From an uncultured Alphaproteobacteria bacterium (GTDB lineage Bacteria; Pseudomonadota; Alphaproteobacteria; CACZRW01), in the NCBI GenBank assembly GCA_944390645.1, contig CALXRE010000004.1:1-35993 (forward strand): a stretch of DNA of 35,993 nt, written 5' to 3'. A program made the translations under genes and the position numbers. Shown here piece by piece: positions 6,337 through 35,993 of the stretch (position 1 is its first letter; every line of letters begins with the position of its first letter). Under the pieces are notes generated by a model. That model was not told the DNA's origin. It worked only from the letters and a program-made list of their open reading frames with translations, and did no database searches.

Positions 6337-8313
6337 TTATAGATGTTGTCCTCCATCAATAATAATTGTTTCTCCAGTTAAAGCATCGGTATTAAGAATG
6401 AATTTAATAGCATTATATATTTGAAGAGGATTTGTTTTTTGTTTTAGTGGTAAAGTAGCTATTTTAGCCTCCATTTCTTTAGCGTTCATTTCAGGCGAAG
6501 GAAGCACTATACCAGGAGCAATGGCATTTACTCTGATATTAGGAGCTAAAGCGAGAGCAACCATTTTTGTCATATCAGCCAAGGCACATTTGCTTAATGT
6601 ATAGCTGAAGAAAGCAGGATTTGGTCTTACAGTTTTTTGATCGGTTATATTAATAATGTTTCCGATAGAGCCATCATTTGAAGCAAACTGAGCAGCAAAA
6701 TCTTGCATTAAAAGGAAGGGAGCGCGTAAGTTTATCATCATATGTTTATTCCAAGTTTCTAGGGATACAGAATCAAAGGAATCTTTTTCAAACACAGCAG
6801 CACAATTTATTAAGCAGTCTACTTTTTCAAAAACACTAAATATTTGAGGGAAGATTTGTACTACTTCATTTTCATCTTCTAGATCAGCCTGTAATAGAGC
6901 GGTTCGAACTTTACATTTTCCAATTTCTCTAGCCAATTCGCGAGCTTCAGCAATAGAGTTATTACAATGGATAATAACGTTCCAACCATCTTTAGCAAAA
7001 CCCAGAGCGATTTCTTTCCCGATTCGTTTAGCAGCACCAGTGATTAGAACAGTTTTTCTTTCTGCTGCAGCCAAAGGAGTTGGTCGCAATTGAGTTTTGA
7101 AGCTTTCATTTTTTTTAGTGTCTATATTTAGATTATTCATAGGAATAGCAGGTTTTATATGCAATTTTTCCTCTATTTTATCAGAAGGTTTTTTAATTAT
7201 AGTTACAGAAGAATTTGAAGAAGCTGAAGCATTAGGGAAAGCGTTTAATTCCCAAGTATGTATATTATCATTAGTTTTTATAGTTAAAGATATAGTTCTA
7301 GGTTTATTTTCTTCTTCTTTATTTATGTTTATTAAGCGAATATGTTCAAGTACACTTTCATATACAATAAAAGAATCTTTTCCTTGTAAGAGCAGACACC
7401 CATGTTGATCTATATTAGTAAGAGTAATAGAAGTATCTTCTACTTGCCCATTTTCATCTAAAAATAGAGCCCAAGGACGAAGGCGATCATTATTTTGTCG
7501 TCCAGCGACTATTTTTATATTTAAGGATTTAATTTGCTCATTAGCTAATTCCTTTAAAGATAATCCTGGAGCAAAGGATTCAGGATATAAAGTCATAAAG
7601 TTTTCTTCGCCGATTAATAGTTTTAATCTAATATTATTATATAGAGCACTTTCTGGTTTAAGGATATCACAGAAGCCAATAGTTAGAGAGTCTCCAGCAT
7701 TATCGAAATAGATAGCAGCATGTTGGAAACCATCAGGGTTTAGTAAAGAATAAGCACCTTTTGCAATGGTATGGAATATATGTCCAGCAAGGATCTGTGG
7801 TCCATAAGTTTCTGAATCCCAAATAAGTACAGGGTTTTTAGATTCTAAAGAAGCTGGTTTTGTTTTTTCTAAGAAGGCATGGTTTTCTCGATCTATCCAA
7901 AATATTTCGCCATTTTTTTCTTTTGCAGGAATAGCCTTCCAATTTAGAGAACGTTCAAAGAAGAATAAGGATCCATTTTTATTGCCTGCCAGATTAGAGA
8001 AGTCAGGAATATTTTGGTTTAAAGAGAAGCCATTATTGATAAGGAAGAAGCTTATTTTTTTACGAATATAATCTTTTGGTAAAGCAAAAGAACTTACAGT
8101 AGGGATTAAGGAATCTGGAGCTAAGTTAGGAAAAGCGATTTTAGGATTTTTTAAAAATCCATTATCATCAACTTCATATATTCCGAAGATATGAGGTCCA
8201 CTTAGAGATTTTAAAAAAGTTAATTTTACAGGGAAATCATATTTAAGGAAAAGATTTCCAGGTATTTCTTCAGCTTTTCGATTATACTGTAAAGGGTTTA
8301 AATTTTCTTCCAC
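6337..8313 (-). CDS. FolM/pteridine-reductase-like SDR with ~410-residue unknown N-terminal extension
   Basis: A 658-residue protein in one uninterrupted frame. Residues about 418-658 are a short-chain dehydrogenase: the cofactor loop TGAAKRIG (425-432), NCAA (503-506), the active-site pair Tyr571 and Lys575 in YTLSK, and the end IIIDGGQHL. The usual catalytic Ser is replaced in ITDQ (556-559), as in the FolM/PTR1-like reductases usually coded beside uvrC in alphaproteobacteria, which are normally only about 250 residues long. Residues 1-410 match nothing I know: no signal peptide, no helical membrane segment, and a mixed alpha/beta or beta-rich character, then a low-complexity Ser/Asn and Lys linker (about 360-415). 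The start is GTG with AAGAGG upstream; it overlaps the end of uvrB by 16 bases. The SDR part probably reduces a pteridine (dihydromonapterin-like) with NADPH; the N-terminal role is unknown. Confidence 0.88.
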
Positions 8314-10472: not shown

Positions 10473-11522
10473 TTATTCTTTTGTTACAGGTACCCATAAG
10501 ACATCATCAATATTATTAGCCCCAGTGATTACCATTACCAAGCGGTCAACACCTACGGCTATACCTGCAGAAGGAGGCATACCGAAAGCTAAAGCATTCA
10601 TGAAGTCTTCATCGATAGGATATCGTTCTGCATAGAGTTTTTCTTTCATATCCATATCTGCAGTGAATCTTTTTCTTTGTTCTTGGACATCGGTTAGTTC
10701 AGAGAAAGCATTACCTAATTCTAGCCCACATACGTATAGTTCGAAGCGTTCAGATACTCTAGGATCAGAAGGTTTTTTTCTAGATAAAGCAGCTAAACAT
10801 TTAGGATATTCATAAAATATTGTAGGCACTCCATTAAAACCTAGTTTTGGTTCTACTTTATCTAGGCAGATTCGGAAGAAGACGTCTTCCCAACGGTCAT
10901 TTTCAGAACAATGTATGCCGATTTTTTTTGCTTCTTTGATAAGTTTTTGAGGATTAGGGTCTGGATTATCAGGGTTATCGATAGTAGCGAGTACATCGAT
11001 ATTTGCATATTTAAGGAAAGCATTTTGAATAGTTAACATTTCCCAATCTTTGAAAGGATCACAAAAAGATCCTTTATAAGAGAGTATGTTTTTCCCAAGA
11101 TTTTTAGTGGCATTTCGGATTAGTTTTTTACAGTCTTCCATAATAGATAAATAGTCATCATTAGCACGATACCATTCAATCATTGTAAATTCTGGATGAT
11201 GTCTATCAGAGCGTTCAGCATTTCGATAGACATGGCAGATTTGATAGATTTTAGGGAGCCCTGCGACCAAGAGTTTTTTCATCGAGAATTCAGGAGAAGT
11301 ATGTAAGTATAAGGTTTTAGTTTTGTCATAGAAAGGTTCTTCTAAAGATGTTTTAAAAGCTTTTAAATGTACCTCTAATCCAGGAGATATTTGTAAAGAA
11401 GGAGTTTCTACTTCAAAGAAGCCTTGTTCATCGAAATAATTTCGGATTGATTTAATAATTTTTTGTCTTTCTTGTAAGAAAGTTATTTTACGTTGATAAA
11501 GTTCAGGTTTCCACCAATTCAT
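10473..11522 (-). CDS. epmA: Elongation factor P--lysine ligase (EpmA/GenX/PoxA type)
   Basis: A 349-residue paralogue of the class II lysyl-tRNA synthetase catalytic core without an anticodon-binding domain. It activates (R)-beta-lysine and attaches it to the conserved lysine of EF-P. Motif 2 is clear (ICHVYRNAERSDRHHPEFTMIEWY, about residues 94-117) and motif 3 lies at the C terminus (GIAVGVDRLVMVI). The gene is divergent from efp across 159 bases, which fixes the substrate. An AAGGA lies 11 bases ahead of the ATG. The length is slightly above that of E. coli EpmA. The aminomutase partner EpmB is not in the window. Confidence 0.92.
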   Translation of the reverse strand: MNWWKPELYQRKITFLQERQKIIKSIRNYFDEQGFFEVETPSLQISPGLEVHLKAFKTSLEEPFYDKTKTLYLHTSPEFSMKKLLVAGLPKIYQICHVYRNAERSDRHHPEFTMIEWYRANDDYLSIMEDCKKLIRNATKNLGKNILSYKGSFCDPFKDWEMLTIQNAFLKYANIDVLATIDNPDNPDPNPQKLIKEAKKIGIHCSENDRWEDVFFRICLDKVEPKLGFNGVPTIFYEYPKCLAALSRKKPSDPRVSERFELYVCGLELGNAFSELTDVQEQRKRFTADMDMKEKLYAERYPIDEDFMNALAFGMPPSAGIAVGVDRLVMVITGANNIDDVLWVPVTKE

Positions 11523-11681: not shown

Positions 11682-12248
11682 ATGAAACAGAACGCAAATT
11701 TAATCCGTCCAGGTTGGGTAATAGAACATAATGGAAAACAATGGTCAGTTATAAAGATTAATCTAGTTCAGCCCGGTAAAGGGGGAGCATTTATTCAAGT
11801 AGAAATGAGAGATGTAGAGACAGGAACCAAGACGAACGAGCGTTGGCGTACAGCAGATACGGTAGAGAAGTTAATGTCAGAAGAAAGGGATTGTCAGTAC
11901 CTTTATAAAGAAGGAGATAATCTTATATTTATGAATACGGAGACATATGATCAATTTTCAGTTCCGACATCAGTTATGGGAGAAAGTGCGGGTTTTTTAC
12001 AAGATAGTATGATGGTTACGGTTAATTTTATAGAGGATCGTCCGATATCCGTAAATTTACCACCATCTGTTATAATGGAAGTTGTAGAATGTGAGCCAGT
12101 TGTAAAAGGACAAACCATTACATCATCCTATAAACCAGCTAAGCTAGAAAATGGTATGAGAATAACAATTCCTCCATTTATTGGTCAGGGAGAGAAAATA
12201 GTAGTTTCTACTTCGGATTGTTCTTATGTTGAGCGAGCGAAGGGTTAA
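11682..12248 (+). CDS. efp: Translation elongation factor P
   Basis: A 188-residue EF-P that relieves ribosomes stalled on proline runs. It has the three expected domains: a KOW-like domain I (1-65) and two OB folds, with the family motif near residue 150 (SYKPAKLENGMRITIPPFIGQGEKI). The modification loop is VQPGKGGAF, with Lys33 at the position of E. coli Lys34, the residue beta-lysylated by EpmA, whose gene is divergent next door. AAGGAGA precedes the ATG. The next gene follows after 29 bases, so efp and the IMPase homologue are probably cotranscribed. Confidence 0.96.
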   Translation: MKQNANLIRPGWVIEHNGKQWSVIKINLVQPGKGGAFIQVEMRDVETGTKTNERWRTADTVEKLMSEERDCQYLYKEGDNLIFMNTETYDQFSVPTSVMGESAGFLQDSMMVTVNFIEDRPISVNLPPSVIMEVVECEPVVKGQTITSSYKPAKLENGMRITIPPFIGQGEKIVVSTSDCSYVERAKG

Positions 12249-12277
12249 GCTTTTAAAGAAGGAAAAAAAGATAAAAG

Positions 12278-13144
12278 ATGTCAGAAATACAAAGGTTGAG
12301 GGCATTTAGGAATCCTAAAGAAGAGAGGCTAATGTCTTCTTTATCACCATCTTTAAATGTTATGATCATGGCGGTTAGGAAGGCAGGCAAGAAGATTATC
12401 CGAGATTTTGGAGAGTTGGAGAATTTGCAAGCATCAGAGAAGAGCGTAGCAGATTTTATGTCAACAACAGAGAATAAGGTAGAGAAGGTACTTTTAGACT
12501 ATTTACAAGAAGTTAGACCTCGTTATGGTTTTAAGGTAAAAGATAATAAGGAAATAGTAGGGGAAGATATCTCCAATAAGTTTTTGATAAGTCCATTGGA
12601 TGGTAGAGTTAATTTTTTGCATGGCATACCATTATTTTCCGTATCTTTAGTTCTTTATAGGGATAATGATATTTTTTCTGGAGTTATTTATAATCCTATA
12701 ATGGATGAGCTTTTTTATGCAGAGAGAGGTTCTGGTGCATTTTTAATGACTTCTCAAGGAGATAAGCGTTTGAGGGTTTCAGGTAGGAAGAAAATATCAG
12801 AAGCTGTTATAGGGGTTGATTTTGCTGTTGAGGAAGATTTACAAAAGACGAGTGATTATATGCTACCATTATTGAAGAAGACGTTAGGAGCACGTCGTTT
12901 AGGTTGTATATCATTAAATCTAGCGTATGTAGCATCGGGACGTTTTGATGGAGGTATATATAGAGGTAGTAGACCTTGGCAGACGGCGGCAGGTTTTCTT
13001 TTGATAAAAGAAGCAGGAGGTCATATTAGGGGAAGCAGATGGGAAGAGAAGTCTTCAGAGGTTTTAAGTTCTCAAGATATAATAGCATCTAATGATAATA
13101 TGGATAAGGAAATATCGAATTCATTATCAAAAAGAAGAATATAG
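12278..13144 (+). CDS. Inositol-monophosphatase-fold protein with degenerate active site
   Basis: A 288-residue member of the SuhB/IMPase family, in the place after efp where alphaproteobacteria usually code an intact family member. The fold is well kept (VNFLHGIPLFSVSLVLYRD; GVIYNPIMDELFYAERGSGAF; ASGRFDG). The catalytic set is not: the metal-binding Glu of the usual EE is Lys88, the first Asp of DPxDGT is Ser105 (SPLDGR), the Thr is Arg110, and the Asp of WDxAAG is Gln235 (WQTAAG). Only Asp108 of the main metal ligands remains. It is therefore unlikely to be a phosphatase. A second start at 12332 with GAGAGG upstream would give a 270-residue protein closer to the family length. E. coli SuhB has a catalysis-independent role in rRNA antitermination; a binding role here is inference. 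Confidence 0.88.
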   Translation: MSEIQRLRAFRNPKEERLMSSLSPSLNVMIMAVRKAGKKIIRDFGELENLQASEKSVADFMSTTENKVEKVLLDYLQEVRPRYGFKVKDNKEIVGEDISNKFLISPLDGRVNFLHGIPLFSVSLVLYRDNDIFSGVIYNPIMDELFYAERGSGAFLMTSQGDKRLRVSGRKKISEAVIGVDFAVEEDLQKTSDYMLPLLKKTLGARRLGCISLNLAYVASGRFDGGIYRGSRPWQTAAGFLLIKEAGGHIRGSRWEEKSSEVLSSQDIIASNDNMDKEISNSLSKRRI

Positions 13145-13181
13145 TAAGAGGAGTTATTTTGATAGAGTTTGGAGGCGACTT

Positions 13182-14093
13182 GTGCAACACATTTATAGGT
13201 TAACTTTATCGATATTTTTAGGATTTTCGTTAATATTATTTTCGAATAGAGTTCAAGCAGGAGAAGAGGTTATATATGTGAATTCTCCGAACGTTATAGT
13301 TGATTTAAGCGTTTTAGATGATATATCGATAGAAGAAGGTCCAGTTAAATTAACACCTCCAGCAAGGATAAAAGGTTCAGCTAAGAAGGTTCAGAATCAG
13401 GAACGCAAAGAAGTTTCAGATAAGAGAGCGAGAACAAAGAAAAAAGTTTATCCTAAGAATGTATCTAAGCCAGATATTTTAGGGATATCAACAGGTACCG
13501 ATACAGTTGAAAGAGTTTCGCCTGAGAGTTCGGAGGGGACAGTAGAAGCAGGTTCAGCAGTTGTATTAGGAGGAGATGCAGCTCCAGTTCCTAGGGTTTC
13601 TAAGACAGAGCCAGTAGAAGTTAAAGAAGAAGGAAGTAAGGAAGAAAAAGGAAATAAGGAGAGCGTATCCAAAGATTTTCTAGATTCGAATATATCGAAG
13701 AGCGAGGAAGTTAGAGACAATACGTTGGAAAAGAAGGAAGTTAAGCAAGATTCTGGAAAAGAAGATTCATCGACATTTTCCGACTCGGGAGATCTTTTGG
13801 TATTAGAATTTTCTTCTGATGCAACGATTTTAAGTTCAGAGAATGAGTCTAAGTTAAAGACATTAGCTTCTCGTCTTAAGAGCAATGAGACTATAAGTGT
13901 TAGGATAATGTCTTATGCACGAGATGAAGAATCAGGCTCTAGTAAAGCGAGGAGGCAATCGTTATCAAGAGCACTTGCGGCGCGATCAGTTTTATTAGAT
14001 GAGGGTGTTCGTTCGACCCGTATAGAAGTTAGGGCTTTAGGGAATAAGGTACAAGAAGATAAGATATATTTAGAGATTATTGAAAGGAAATAG
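13182..14093 (+). CDS. Exported OmpA-domain protein
   Basis: A 303-residue envelope protein. The start is GTG at 13182, with GGAGG 7 bases upstream; the frame is open further into the preceding gene, but without a ribosome binding site. A signal peptide covers about residues 1-26 (cleavage after VQA). The middle (about 70-200) is a charged Ser/Glu/Lys-rich linker of low complexity. The last 100 residues resemble the peptidoglycan-binding OmpA C-terminal fold: LEFSSDATILSSENESKLK near the start, then ARRQSLSRALAARSVLLDEGV and RIEVRALG. It probably anchors to peptidoglycan in the periplasm. It follows the IMPase homologue by 37 bases. There is no lipobox. Confidence 0.8.
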   Translation: MQHIYRLTLSIFLGFSLILFSNRVQAGEEVIYVNSPNVIVDLSVLDDISIEEGPVKLTPPARIKGSAKKVQNQERKEVSDKRARTKKKVYPKNVSKPDILGISTGTDTVERVSPESSEGTVEAGSAVVLGGDAAPVPRVSKTEPVEVKEEGSKEEKGNKESVSKDFLDSNISKSEEVRDNTLEKKEVKQDSGKEDSSTFSDSGDLLVLEFSSDATILSSENESKLKTLASRLKSNETISVRIMSYARDEESGSSKARRQSLSRALAARSVLLDEGVRSTRIEVRALGNKVQEDKIYLEIIERK

Positions 14094-14499: not shown

Positions 14500-16461
14500 G
14501 TGGCTTTAATTACGAACTATGAAGTTTACCTTTTTGATAAAGGAGAATGGAGTATATATTCTAGATATCCTTCCTCACAGAGGGATATAGCTATAAGTGA
14601 AGCCAAAGAATTAGAAGAACAAACAAATCGTCCTACGAAAGTAGTAAAAGAACGTTATGATCCGAAGACGAATCATGGAGATGAGGTAGTAGTTTATTTA
14701 AGTGAAAGGATAATGCAAGGCTCGAAGTATTATTCTAAATCAGGGTCATATAGTAGTAGATATGGTTCAGATTCTTCATGGTTAGATAACATTTCGCCAC
14801 AAAGGATAGGTAAGAACAAAAGAGTAATATCTTATACGGGATTATTTTTACGTCTTTTTTTATTGATTTTAGCAAGTTTAGTTATAGCGTCATTAATATC
14901 TTATTTAGTAGTATTACTTTTAAATAATTTTGGATCAGGATGGTCTTCCTCCACATTATATTCGATAACCTTTGGTGCATTTATTATTATTTTTATACTT
15001 ATCTCGATATTTTCTTCGATAATTTTAATACCATGGAAAGATATAGATTTGAGTTCTCCGTTAAGGATTGAAGGATTAAGCCCTCTTTTTAAGAGCAGAT
15101 ATCAAAAGATGTCAGAATATAATCCATTTGATTCTTTTATGAGTTTTTTTAGATATTTATTTTCCAAGAAGGAGCAAGAGCAGAGAGAAAGTACAGGTTC
15201 AGAGATTAGTAACGAGGAAGTTAAAGAGGCGGAAGAAGGAGAAGAAGAAAGAGTTTTAGAAGAAGAGTCTGTATCGAAAGCTGATATATCAGAAGATTTA
15301 CGAACAAAGGAAGTAATAAGAGAGGGAGGAGAAGAAAAGTTAAAGGTTTCAAAGAAGGAAGAAGAGAAGGCATCAGTTTCCCGAGAAAAGATGGAAAAGA
15401 TTATCAAGATTATTGATAATTTTGTGCATGAAGTTTTAGATGTAGCGAAGAGGTATGATATTCGAAAGGATATTTATACAAGGGTTTCGATAAATTTAAT
15501 AGTTGCAGGTGCGAGTGAGAGATTAAGTACTTTTTTCAATTTACCGAAGAAAGAATATAAAGACATATTAGGATATGCAGTCAAGAAAGTAAGCTTATCG
15601 ACATATGTATCAGAAGATAGTCAGATCAGGACTTTTTATGAAGCATTTAATGATCCAGGATTAGAGAGTTATCATAGGGAGCTTATAGTTTGTGGTAACC
15701 GTTCAATGGATAAAGTACTACGTAAGATAAAGAGGGATGCATTTGAAGGAATAGGGGATCAAATGCGTTTATGGAGGGATTTAGTTACCAAGCAGATAAA
15801 GCCGATAGAGGATATAGAGAAGGAAACGAAGATAATAACACTTATGTTTACGGACATAAGTGGTTCTACGGAGATTTCCCAGAATTATGGACAAGAATTT
15901 ATGCAGAATATATTACATATTCATAATTCGATAGTTAGAGAGGCGATACGTTTATATAGAGGCAAAGAGATAAAACATTTAGGGGATGGAATGTTTTTAA
16001 GTTTTGTTTCTGCGATAGAAGGCATAAGAGCAGCGATATATATTCAAGATCGTATACATATTCATAATTTAGCACATCCAGAAGAAGCATTTTATGTACG
16101 TATAGGAATGAACTCAGGAGAACCGATATCAGAGGATGGAGATTTATTTGGGACAGTAGTTCAAGTTGCCTCTAGGGTTTGTGAGCATGCAGGAGGAGGA
16201 GAGATTTTAATAACGGAAGCGTTACATAATCTTTTAGGAGTAGAAGAATTTAAATTTAAGGATGAAGGAGAGATAAAGTTAAAGGGGATAAAAGAAAGAA
16301 TGCATCTTTACCGAGTAAGTTTGCAAGAAGATAGAAGGGAAAGGAGTAATAAAGGGGATTTATCGGAAGTATCCAAGCAGGAAGCTGAAGATATTTTATT
16401 AGTATCAGGGGAAAAAGAAGAGGAAGAGACAGAAGGAAAAGGATTAGAGATCAAAGTTTAG
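14500..16461 (+). CDS. Membrane-anchored class III adenylate cyclase
   Basis: A 653-residue protein starting at GTG, with AAAGGAAA upstream. Residues 1-100 form a soluble N-terminal part; two transmembrane helices follow at about 113-142 and 154-178; residues about 225-300 are a very acidic Glu/Lys linker; 300-440 are helical; the class III cyclase domain is at about 445-610. Metal-binding Asp452 (FTDISGST) and Asp496 (LGDGMF) are present, Lys492 and Asp548 fit adenine-specific recognition, and Arg559 is kept; the usual Asn before it is Gln555, a variant I recall in related bacterial cyclases. It should make cAMP on the cytoplasmic face. The residues 1-100 and 300-440 have no recognised sensor domain. 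What it senses, and which cAMP receptor it serves, are not visible here. Confidence 0.88.
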   Translation: MALITNYEVYLFDKGEWSIYSRYPSSQRDIAISEAKELEEQTNRPTKVVKERYDPKTNHGDEVVVYLSERIMQGSKYYSKSGSYSSRYGSDSSWLDNISPQRIGKNKRVISYTGLFLRLFLLILASLVIASLISYLVVLLLNNFGSGWSSSTLYSITFGAFIIIFILISIFSSIILIPWKDIDLSSPLRIEGLSPLFKSRYQKMSEYNPFDSFMSFFRYLFSKKEQEQRESTGSEISNEEVKEAEEGEEERVLEEESVSKADISEDLRTKEVIREGGEEKLKVSKKEEEKASVSREKMEKIIKIIDNFVHEVLDVAKRYDIRKDIYTRVSINLIVAGASERLSTFFNLPKKEYKDILGYAVKKVSLSTYVSEDSQIRTFYEAFNDPGLESYHRELIVCGNRSMDKVLRKIKRDAFEGIGDQMRLWRDLVTKQIKPIEDIEKETKIITLMFTDISGSTEISQNYGQEFMQNILHIHNSIVREAIRLYRGKEIKHLGDGMFLSFVSAIEGIRAAIYIQDRIHIHNLAHPEEAFYVRIGMNSGEPISEDGDLFGTVVQVASRVCEHAGGGEILITEALHNLLGVEEFKFKDEGEIKLKGIKERMHLYRVSLQEDRRERSNKGDLSEVSKQEAEDILLVSGEKEEEETEGKGLEIKV

Positions 16462-34853: not shown

Positions 34854-35993
34854 TTACTTTTCTTTGTATATTTGCACAACAGGAGCTTCTGGAATCTTGA
34901 TTCGGTATGCGCCAGCAATTCCTCCTCCGACAGTTGTTTTTATACAGGTTAAACCAGATACACTAAAGCATTTTCCTGAACCATCTCCAGCTCCAGGTCC
35001 ACTTTTAGAGGCCCAATCAGTACCTACACCACCACCTCCTCCTCCAGTACCTGCTGGAGCATCAGTAGCGTAGGTCCAACCTTGGTCTGTCCAATATTTA
35101 GATCCATCTCCGCCTATTTTAACACCACCATAGGAACACCCCTTGCCACCAGAGGAAGAGGAATATGATGAGCCATGGTAACCTGCTCCACCATCACATA
35201 CAAACCCTTTCCCACCACCAGATATAGTCCAGGAGTTTCCTGCAAACCACCACCATTGACTGCCACCACCTCCGCCCCAGCCACCACCGCCACCGCCTTC
35301 TCCTACTGCGCCACCACCGCCAGCAACTACCAGCATAGTTGAAGAAGAAGTACAAGGTGAAACGCCAAGGCATATCCCAACTCCAGAAGCACCAACAGCG
35401 CTACTAAAAGGATGAGATCCTCCACCACCTATATTAACGCCACCTGTTCGTGTAGTGAAAGCAAAATTAATTGTTTCAGAAGAAGTATATTTAGCTTCTG
35501 CATATCCTCCATTTCCGCCATAAATACTGCCATGTGGTGTGAAACTTCCGCCACCACCTCCCTTGGCTACAATTCGATAAGTACCAGGACATAGGTTATT
35601 TAAATACTGGGTCATGTTACCTGTTGGGGCAAAAGATGAGGCATATATCAATCCAGTATCTTTATCTAAGTAGGTAACTTCACAACATTGACAGCAAGTT
35701 AAAGTTACAGATTTTTCAGAGGTAACAGTATTATTATTACCGACTCTAGAAGGATCATATTTTACGATGTTATCACAAGTATTATTGTAGGCATTATCAT
35801 AACCATAACGACACGCTATATTTGACGTTTCGTTTGCTCGATTACATTCTGTAATAGTCTCAACCGCTGTTGCCACTCGATTACCTATAAAATAACAGGG
35901 TCTACTACTTCCTGCTTTCTGGCTCGAATTTATATAATAATACTTTGAACTCGCTGTCGGATTGCTCTGTATAATACTGCTACAGCTACGATT
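34854..35993 (-). CDS. Glycine-rich, cysteine-containing probable surface protein, 5' partial
   Basis: The frame is open from the stop at 34854 to the right edge (380 residues visible). The GTG at 35876 is probably internal, because 39 in-frame codons precede it without a stop. The upstream part (residues 1-120 of what is seen) is Ser/Thr/Asn-rich with many cysteines (NRSCSS, RPCYF, TECNR, IACRYGYDNAYNNTCDN, CCQCCE). A long Gly-rich region follows, with runs such as GGGGGGWGGGGG and a WWW cluster, and the end AGAYRIKIPEAP is less repetitive. Such Gly-rich sequences occur in secreted, pilus-like or adhesin-like proteins with disulphides; the export signal would lie beyond the edge. The base composition is much richer in G+C than its neighbours, largely because of the glycine codons. 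The function is unknown. Confidence 0.78.
   Translation of the reverse strand, partial: NRSCSSIIQSNPTASSKYYYINSSQKAGSSRPCYFIGNRVATAVETITECNRANETSNIACRYGYDNAYNNTCDNIVKYDPSRVGNNNTVTSEKSVTLTCCQCCEVTYLDKDTGLIYASSFAPTGNMTQYLNNLCPGTYRIVAKGGGGGSFTPHGSIYGGNGGYAEAKYTSSETINFAFTTRTGGVNIGGGGSHPFSSAVGASGVGICLGVSPCTSSSTMLVVAGGGGAVGEGGGGGGWGGGGGSQWWWFAGNSWTISGGGKGFVCDGGAGYHGSSYSSSSGGKGCSYGGVKIGGDGSKYWTDQGWTYATDAPAGTGGGGGGVGTDWASKSGPGAGDGSGKCFSVSGLTCIKTTVGGGIAGAYRIKIPEAPVVQIYKEK

Follow-up and report, generated by a model that had tools for sequence, protein, structure and literature searches.

Why should a gene directly downstream of efp be kept when the protein it encodes has the fold of an inositol monophosphatase (IMPase) and almost none of the residues needed for IMPase catalysis? 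We examined this question in a stretch of alphaproteobacterial DNA of 35,993 nucleotides, hereafter called the window, and in related genomes. The genes around the locus were as follows.

10473..11522, reverse strand: epmA (genX), EF-P lysine ligase, divergent from efp (TIGR00462, 378.7 bits, cut-off 286.9)
11682..12248, forward strand: efp, elongation factor P (EF-P), directly upstream of suhB (three EF-P Pfam domains)
12278..13144, forward strand: suhB, a SuhB with the IMPase fold that is very probably catalytically dead, 288 amino acids plus stop (PF00459, PDB matches, AlphaFold, alignment)
13092..14093, forward strand: OmpA-domain protein, after suhB; found also in the two relatives from the same order described below

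The suhB frame begins with an ATG at 12278, 29 nt after the efp stop codon, and ends with a stop codon at 13142-13144. The reverse strand across 12278-13144 contained no long frame. A second in-frame ATG (Met19) is present at 12332 with a purine-rich AGAGAGG just 5' of it, but residues 10-22 are conserved in the order of the window organism and in the sister-like family f73, in which the SuhB active site is intact, and this conservation supports the upstream start at 12278. The first-pass annotation had argued against decay from the intact frame and the ribosome-binding site. The frame is indeed intact, while the putative site (AAGGA, 12259-12263) is weaker than stated, being 14 nt from the ATG. 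The start codon of the OmpA-domain gene is uncertain because its listed frame overlaps suhB. Further downstream of efp-suhB, positions 14500-16461 encode a membrane protein with a C-terminal adenylate/guanylate cyclase domain. On the reverse strand, 6337-8313 encodes a short-chain dehydrogenase domain preceded by an N-terminal region of about 400 amino acids without a Pfam match, and 34854-35876 encodes a glycine-rich protein, also without a Pfam match.

The assignment to SuhB was clear. PF00459 matched residues 23-278 with 129.2 bits (cut-off 27) in the Pfam search, and the best PDB sequence match was Bartonella SuhB (3luz, E 7e-62). The AlphaFold model had a mean pLDDT of 93.5, and its top Foldseek matches in the PDB were all SuhB: 3lv0/3luz, a P. 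aeruginosa set, and E. coli 6ib8 and 6tqn. The last of these, SuhB within the rrn antitermination complex, matched with a TM-score by target of 0.93. These results agree with the earlier claim, made from the letters of the window, that the IMPase fold and the full length are kept. The equivalog models of HisN (103.7, cut-off 275) and CysQ (74, cut-off 228.8) scored below their cut-offs, and by these models the protein does not qualify as HisN or CysQ. A motif of the SuhB class was largely retained.

12893..12940, forward strand: SuhB-class motif, residues 206-221, RRLGCISLNLAYVASG (alignment)

A motif RR...GSAAL has been described for SuhB (PMC5516325), and the SuhB-class segment RR...G..(A/S)LDLAYVAAGR appears in the window as RRLGCISLNLAYVASGR, in which the Asp of the segment is Asn. 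The protein is encoded directly 3' of efp and carries at residues 42-53 the signature RDFxE-LQxS, the two marks of the efp-linked SuhB of Alphaproteobacteria. We conclude that it is an orthologue of this SuhB which has, very probably, turned into a pseudoenzyme.

Comparison with known proteins located the difference in the active site. Bartonella henselae SuhB (3luz, 3lv0) is the closest solved structure, with 37-39% identity and a TM-score by target of 0.91-0.97, and it has the signature as RDYGEVQNLQVS; its site, however, is intact (MEE, DPLDGT, WD), where the window protein has K, S, R and Q. E. coli SuhB (6ib7, 6ib8, 6tqn) has the same fold (TM-score by target 0.86-0.93) and shares the segment RR.G...L.LAYVA.G, but it has an intact site with IMPase activity, lacks RDFxE-LQxS and the N-terminal extension, and has no link to efp. 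The AlphaFold model of an intact sister protein (L085) showed the same architecture as the window SuhB. A remodelled mobile loop was considered from these two models and set aside, as helix 2 begins about 3 residues earlier in the window protein, which is too small a difference to interpret. The window genome also has two paralogues from the same superfamily, one CysQ-like (contig C54; 218.2 bits, just below the CysQ cut-off) and one HisN-like (contig C106; well below the HisN cut-off). Unlike the window SuhB, both have intact ligands, no efp link and no signature, and between them they would account for the rest of the IMPase-family phosphatase chemistry of the genome. In Sinorhizobium meliloti, the IMPase-family gene smc04042 acts as a histidinol-phosphatase (PMC5929573).

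When the window protein was aligned with E. coli SuhB, Lys88 corresponded to Glu67, Ser105 to Asp84, Asp108 to Asp87, Arg110 to Thr89 and Gln235 to Asp212. All residues named in the first-pass annotation (Lys88, Ser105, Arg110, Gln235 and the kept Asp108) were correct in this alignment, and two more active-site positions, Glu65 and Asp89, were found to be altered.

12470..12472, forward strand: Glu65 in place of an active-site Asp (E. coli Asp44) (alignment)
12539..12544, forward strand: Lys88-Asp89 in place of Glu-Glu (E. coli Glu67-Glu68), with loss of the metal-ligand Glu (alignment)
12590..12607, forward strand: S105-P-L-D108-G-R110 in place of D-P-L-D-G-T, Asp108 alone being kept (alignment)
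12977..12982, forward strand: Trp234-Gln235 in place of Trp-Asp (E. coli Asp212) (alignment)

The ligand set of active IMPases (Glu, Asp-x-x-Asp-Gly-Thr, Trp-Asp) is therefore not found in the window SuhB.

The same state was observed in the two relatives. The sample of the order consisted of three species: the window genome, which is a metagenome-assembled genome (MAG) of 1.2 Mb in 114 contigs, 87% complete; a congener (G001), in which suhB lies on a 158-kb contig and encodes a protein 77% identical to the window SuhB; and a member of a second genus (G002), whose SuhB is 48% identical. The gene order epmA-efp-suhB was common to all three. At the positions of the Glu and the first, second and last Asp, the residues were K/S/D/Q in the window, R/S/D/Q in the congener and A/E/D/S in the second genus; read with the Thr in place of the second Asp, they were K/S/R/Q, R/S/E/Q and A/E/V/S. 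A check for a close relative with intact ligands, or for a frameshift, thus found both relatives without the ligands, differently replaced, and no frameshift. Since all ligand and nucleophile-activating positions but one are gone across the whole order, the known two-metal phosphatase chemistry of IMPases should be impossible, as judged from the sequences.

The gene is nevertheless constrained. Between the window and the congener, pN was 0.156 and pS was 0.84, given as proportions only because synonymous sites were saturated; third-position GC was 27% and 43%, respectively. The divergence of SuhB relative to EF-P was 2.7-3.3 in the order versus about 1.1-2 in many intact families, with intact f73 reaching 3.9. 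Because SuhB of the order outpaces many intact SuhBs when scaled to EF-P, the constraint is probably looser than on an enzyme, yet real. SuhB is thus under purifying selection, with its fold and locus retained.

We examined whether the loss extends beyond the order in 120 alphaproteobacterial genomes, among which weak matches were over-sampled. An efp-type SuhB that lacked two or more of the four core ligands was counted as dead; the tally excludes three loci, L118 for an apparent frameshift, L166 as truncated and L175 as too divergent. Dead SuhB was found in 25 of the 120 genomes, in 17 families, which is not a frequency because the sample was enriched for weak matches, and 21 of the 25 copies still follow efp. 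The idea that the loss is private to the order of the window was rejected, as weak-scoring genomes elsewhere in the class included further dead copies. Intact SuhB was present in 93 of the 120 genomes and in all of 34 further named records. As most alphaproteobacterial copies keep the active site, catalysis or metal binding must matter in most lineages, a point against the scaffold reading preferred below. On a tree of EF-P, which is independent of the SuhB sequence, the dead state needed 16 changes, and well-supported branches forced at least 6; the tree was built on 192 columns and has many weak forks, so that the number of losses is inexact. Families f34, f102 and f103 contained both intact and dead copies, and the losses there are comparatively recent. 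The active site has accordingly been lost independently in several to many alphaproteobacterial lineages, with the scaffold and mostly the signature of helix 1 kept. In the literature, we found no report of a naturally inactive SuhB, nor of SuhB or inositol monophosphatase as a pseudoenzyme. At L118 (G171, family f46), SuhB seems to be frameshifted near its end, with the WD motif lost and an out-of-frame tail, while another member of the family (L148) is intact; this may reflect a sequencing error or a pseudogene of recent origin.

If the active site can be discarded, the positions that are retained may indicate what is selected. Active-site columns outside the definition of dead were mostly lost in the dead copies (retention of Asp65 5%, Glu89 5%, Thr110 18%, Trp234 23%). 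In contrast, the non-catalytic columns Asp43, Phe44, Glu46, Leu76 and Arg206 were each retained in 95%, Leu50 in 91% and Gln51 in 86%, and Gly109, Asn112, Gly153, Gly209 and Gly221 in 100%. Several of these columns belong to the signature.

12401..12436, forward strand: non-catalytic signature, residues 42-53, RDFGELENLQAS, kept in intact and dead alphaproteobacterial SuhB

In its full form, R-D-F-x-E-[ILV]-x2-L-Q-x-S, with near matches allowed, the signature was found in 21 of the 25 dead and 86 of the 93 intact copies. It was absent from E. coli SuhB, which has KNYETPDAVEAS there, and from HisN-like paralogues. In the AlphaFold model of the window protein, the signature spans the last part of helix 1 and the loop after it. 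Its recurrence in divergent lineages excludes chance.

The loss of the active site, the purifying selection and the repeated independent losses together indicate that the selected function rests on the scaffold and not on catalysis. In E. coli, complementation of suhB showed that IMPase activity is dispensable for the known cellular role of the protein; SuhB is a component of the rRNA transcription complex, and variants that do not bind RNA polymerase fail to complement (PMC6614801, PMC4807359). The SuhB dimer has been described as a hub touching NusA, S10 and NusG (PMC10250234). By analogy, we regard SuhB in this order as a scaffold without enzymatic function, whose most likely place is the SuhB/Nus complex of rRNA transcription, and we give this reading a probability of roughly 0.6. 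It would act as a dimeric hub joining NusA, NusE (S10), NusG and leader RNA on RNA polymerase during rRNA synthesis, and RDFxE-LQxS would serve as a contact site particular to the class. A translational or RNA-related role, as first proposed for the gene, is plausible on the same analogy. That proposal spoke of a new, non-enzymatic job; non-enzymatic holds, while new is probably wrong, because repeated loss of the active site with the scaffold retained is most simply read as an old non-catalytic role under selection.

K251 and L254 of E. coli SuhB are needed for binding of the NusA AR2 domain (PMC6614801). These contacts are not conserved in the window protein, which has K277 and S280 in the two columns, but the columns vary in all alphaproteobacterial SuhB, intact or dead, and are therefore uninformative. 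NusA carrying both of its C-terminal repeats was present in the congener (two TIGR01954 repeats) and in the second genus, whereas the search of the window genome, 87% complete, did not find it. It was rejected as a diagnostic partner, being nearly universal and found even in genomes without detected SuhB (G021, G033, G059, G062). Two genomes (G131 and G084, loci L172 and L175; 97% complete) with a very degenerate efp-linked SuhB gave no NusA match at E 1e-20, and in G093 and G130 neither SuhB nor NusA was found; it is possible that NusA has been lost in some Alphaproteobacteria or is too divergent for the search. Near nusA of the congener, a glycine-rich frame (L079, 3984-4499, reverse strand) resembles the glycine-rich protein at 34854-35876 of the window.

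Because the AR2 residues are not conserved, NusA is uninformative and no NusA was found in the window genome, a partner specific to Alphaproteobacteria, EF-P included, is a serious rival, although we regard it as doubtful. The dead scaffold would then serve a partner outside the Nus complex, for example EF-P, an EF-P modification enzyme or an early step of ribosome assembly, with RDFxE-LQxS as the docking site. In most alphaproteobacterial loci efp immediately precedes SuhB, which fits this reading, as does a signature that is class-specific among the sequences compared; E. coli SuhB, encoded away from efp, lacks it. Adjacency of genes alone is, however, a weak argument, and some copies, degenerate as well as intact, lie apart from efp on the stretch read. 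The first-pass annotation had taken the efp neighbourhood as a clue to the job; efp was, however, directly upstream in 81 of the 93 intact copies, so that the order efp-suhB looks ancestral in Alphaproteobacteria and is not specific evidence for the window lineage. In the literature, we found no experiment that ties alphaproteobacterial SuhB to rRNA transcription. We tentatively suggest, at well below even odds, that efp-linked SuhB is primarily a non-enzymatic scaffold of ribosome biogenesis or translation in the whole class, with RDFxE-LQxS as its own docking signature for a partner that E. coli SuhB does not use; the phosphatase site would then be an optional relic, lost at least about 6 and perhaps about 16 times.

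Other readings were weaker than the scaffold. With Asp108 retained and acidic residues at positions 65 and 89 (Glu65, Asp89), some metal binding is conceivable and the protein might still be an enzyme with one metal or a re-engineered site. A new conserved site would not be expected to differ among related species as the replacements do here, and no new consensus arose at the ligand columns across the dead copies of the class; we consider this reading improbable.

Even less probable, and already largely refuted, is that suhB lost catalysis and is now decaying on its way out. The raised divergence relative to EF-P and the lack of any SuhB match in some small genomes would suit decay, but intact f73 diverges just as strongly, frames remain full-length across three species that have diverged to about 50% identity, pN is far below pS, and the signature at residues 42-53 is retained in most dead copies of the 17 families. 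The earlier view that the gene is not decaying and is kept for a non-enzymatic job is thus strongly supported, by purifying selection, diversifying loss across the order, repeated loss across the class, synteny and the non-catalytic motif. The two independent related MAGs, together with pN/pS, led us to reject a pseudogene or sequencing error. An assembly artefact or misassigned paralogue, which the fragmented window MAG might have suggested, is refuted because those MAGs share both the loss and the gene order, and there is no frameshift.

Whether the phosphatase activity of SuhB has any relevance to its role in rRNA transcription has been an open question since the E. coli mutant work. The lineages described here are a natural repeat of that experiment, as the parts of SuhB that stay selected can be read from those without the active site, and the recurrence of the loss gives a direct test of whether SuhB catalysis matters. 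These lineages also offer orthologues in which catalysis has already been abolished, together with a short motif that is a candidate contact site. An annotation as inositol monophosphatase beside efp in Alphaproteobacteria need not mean a phosphatase.
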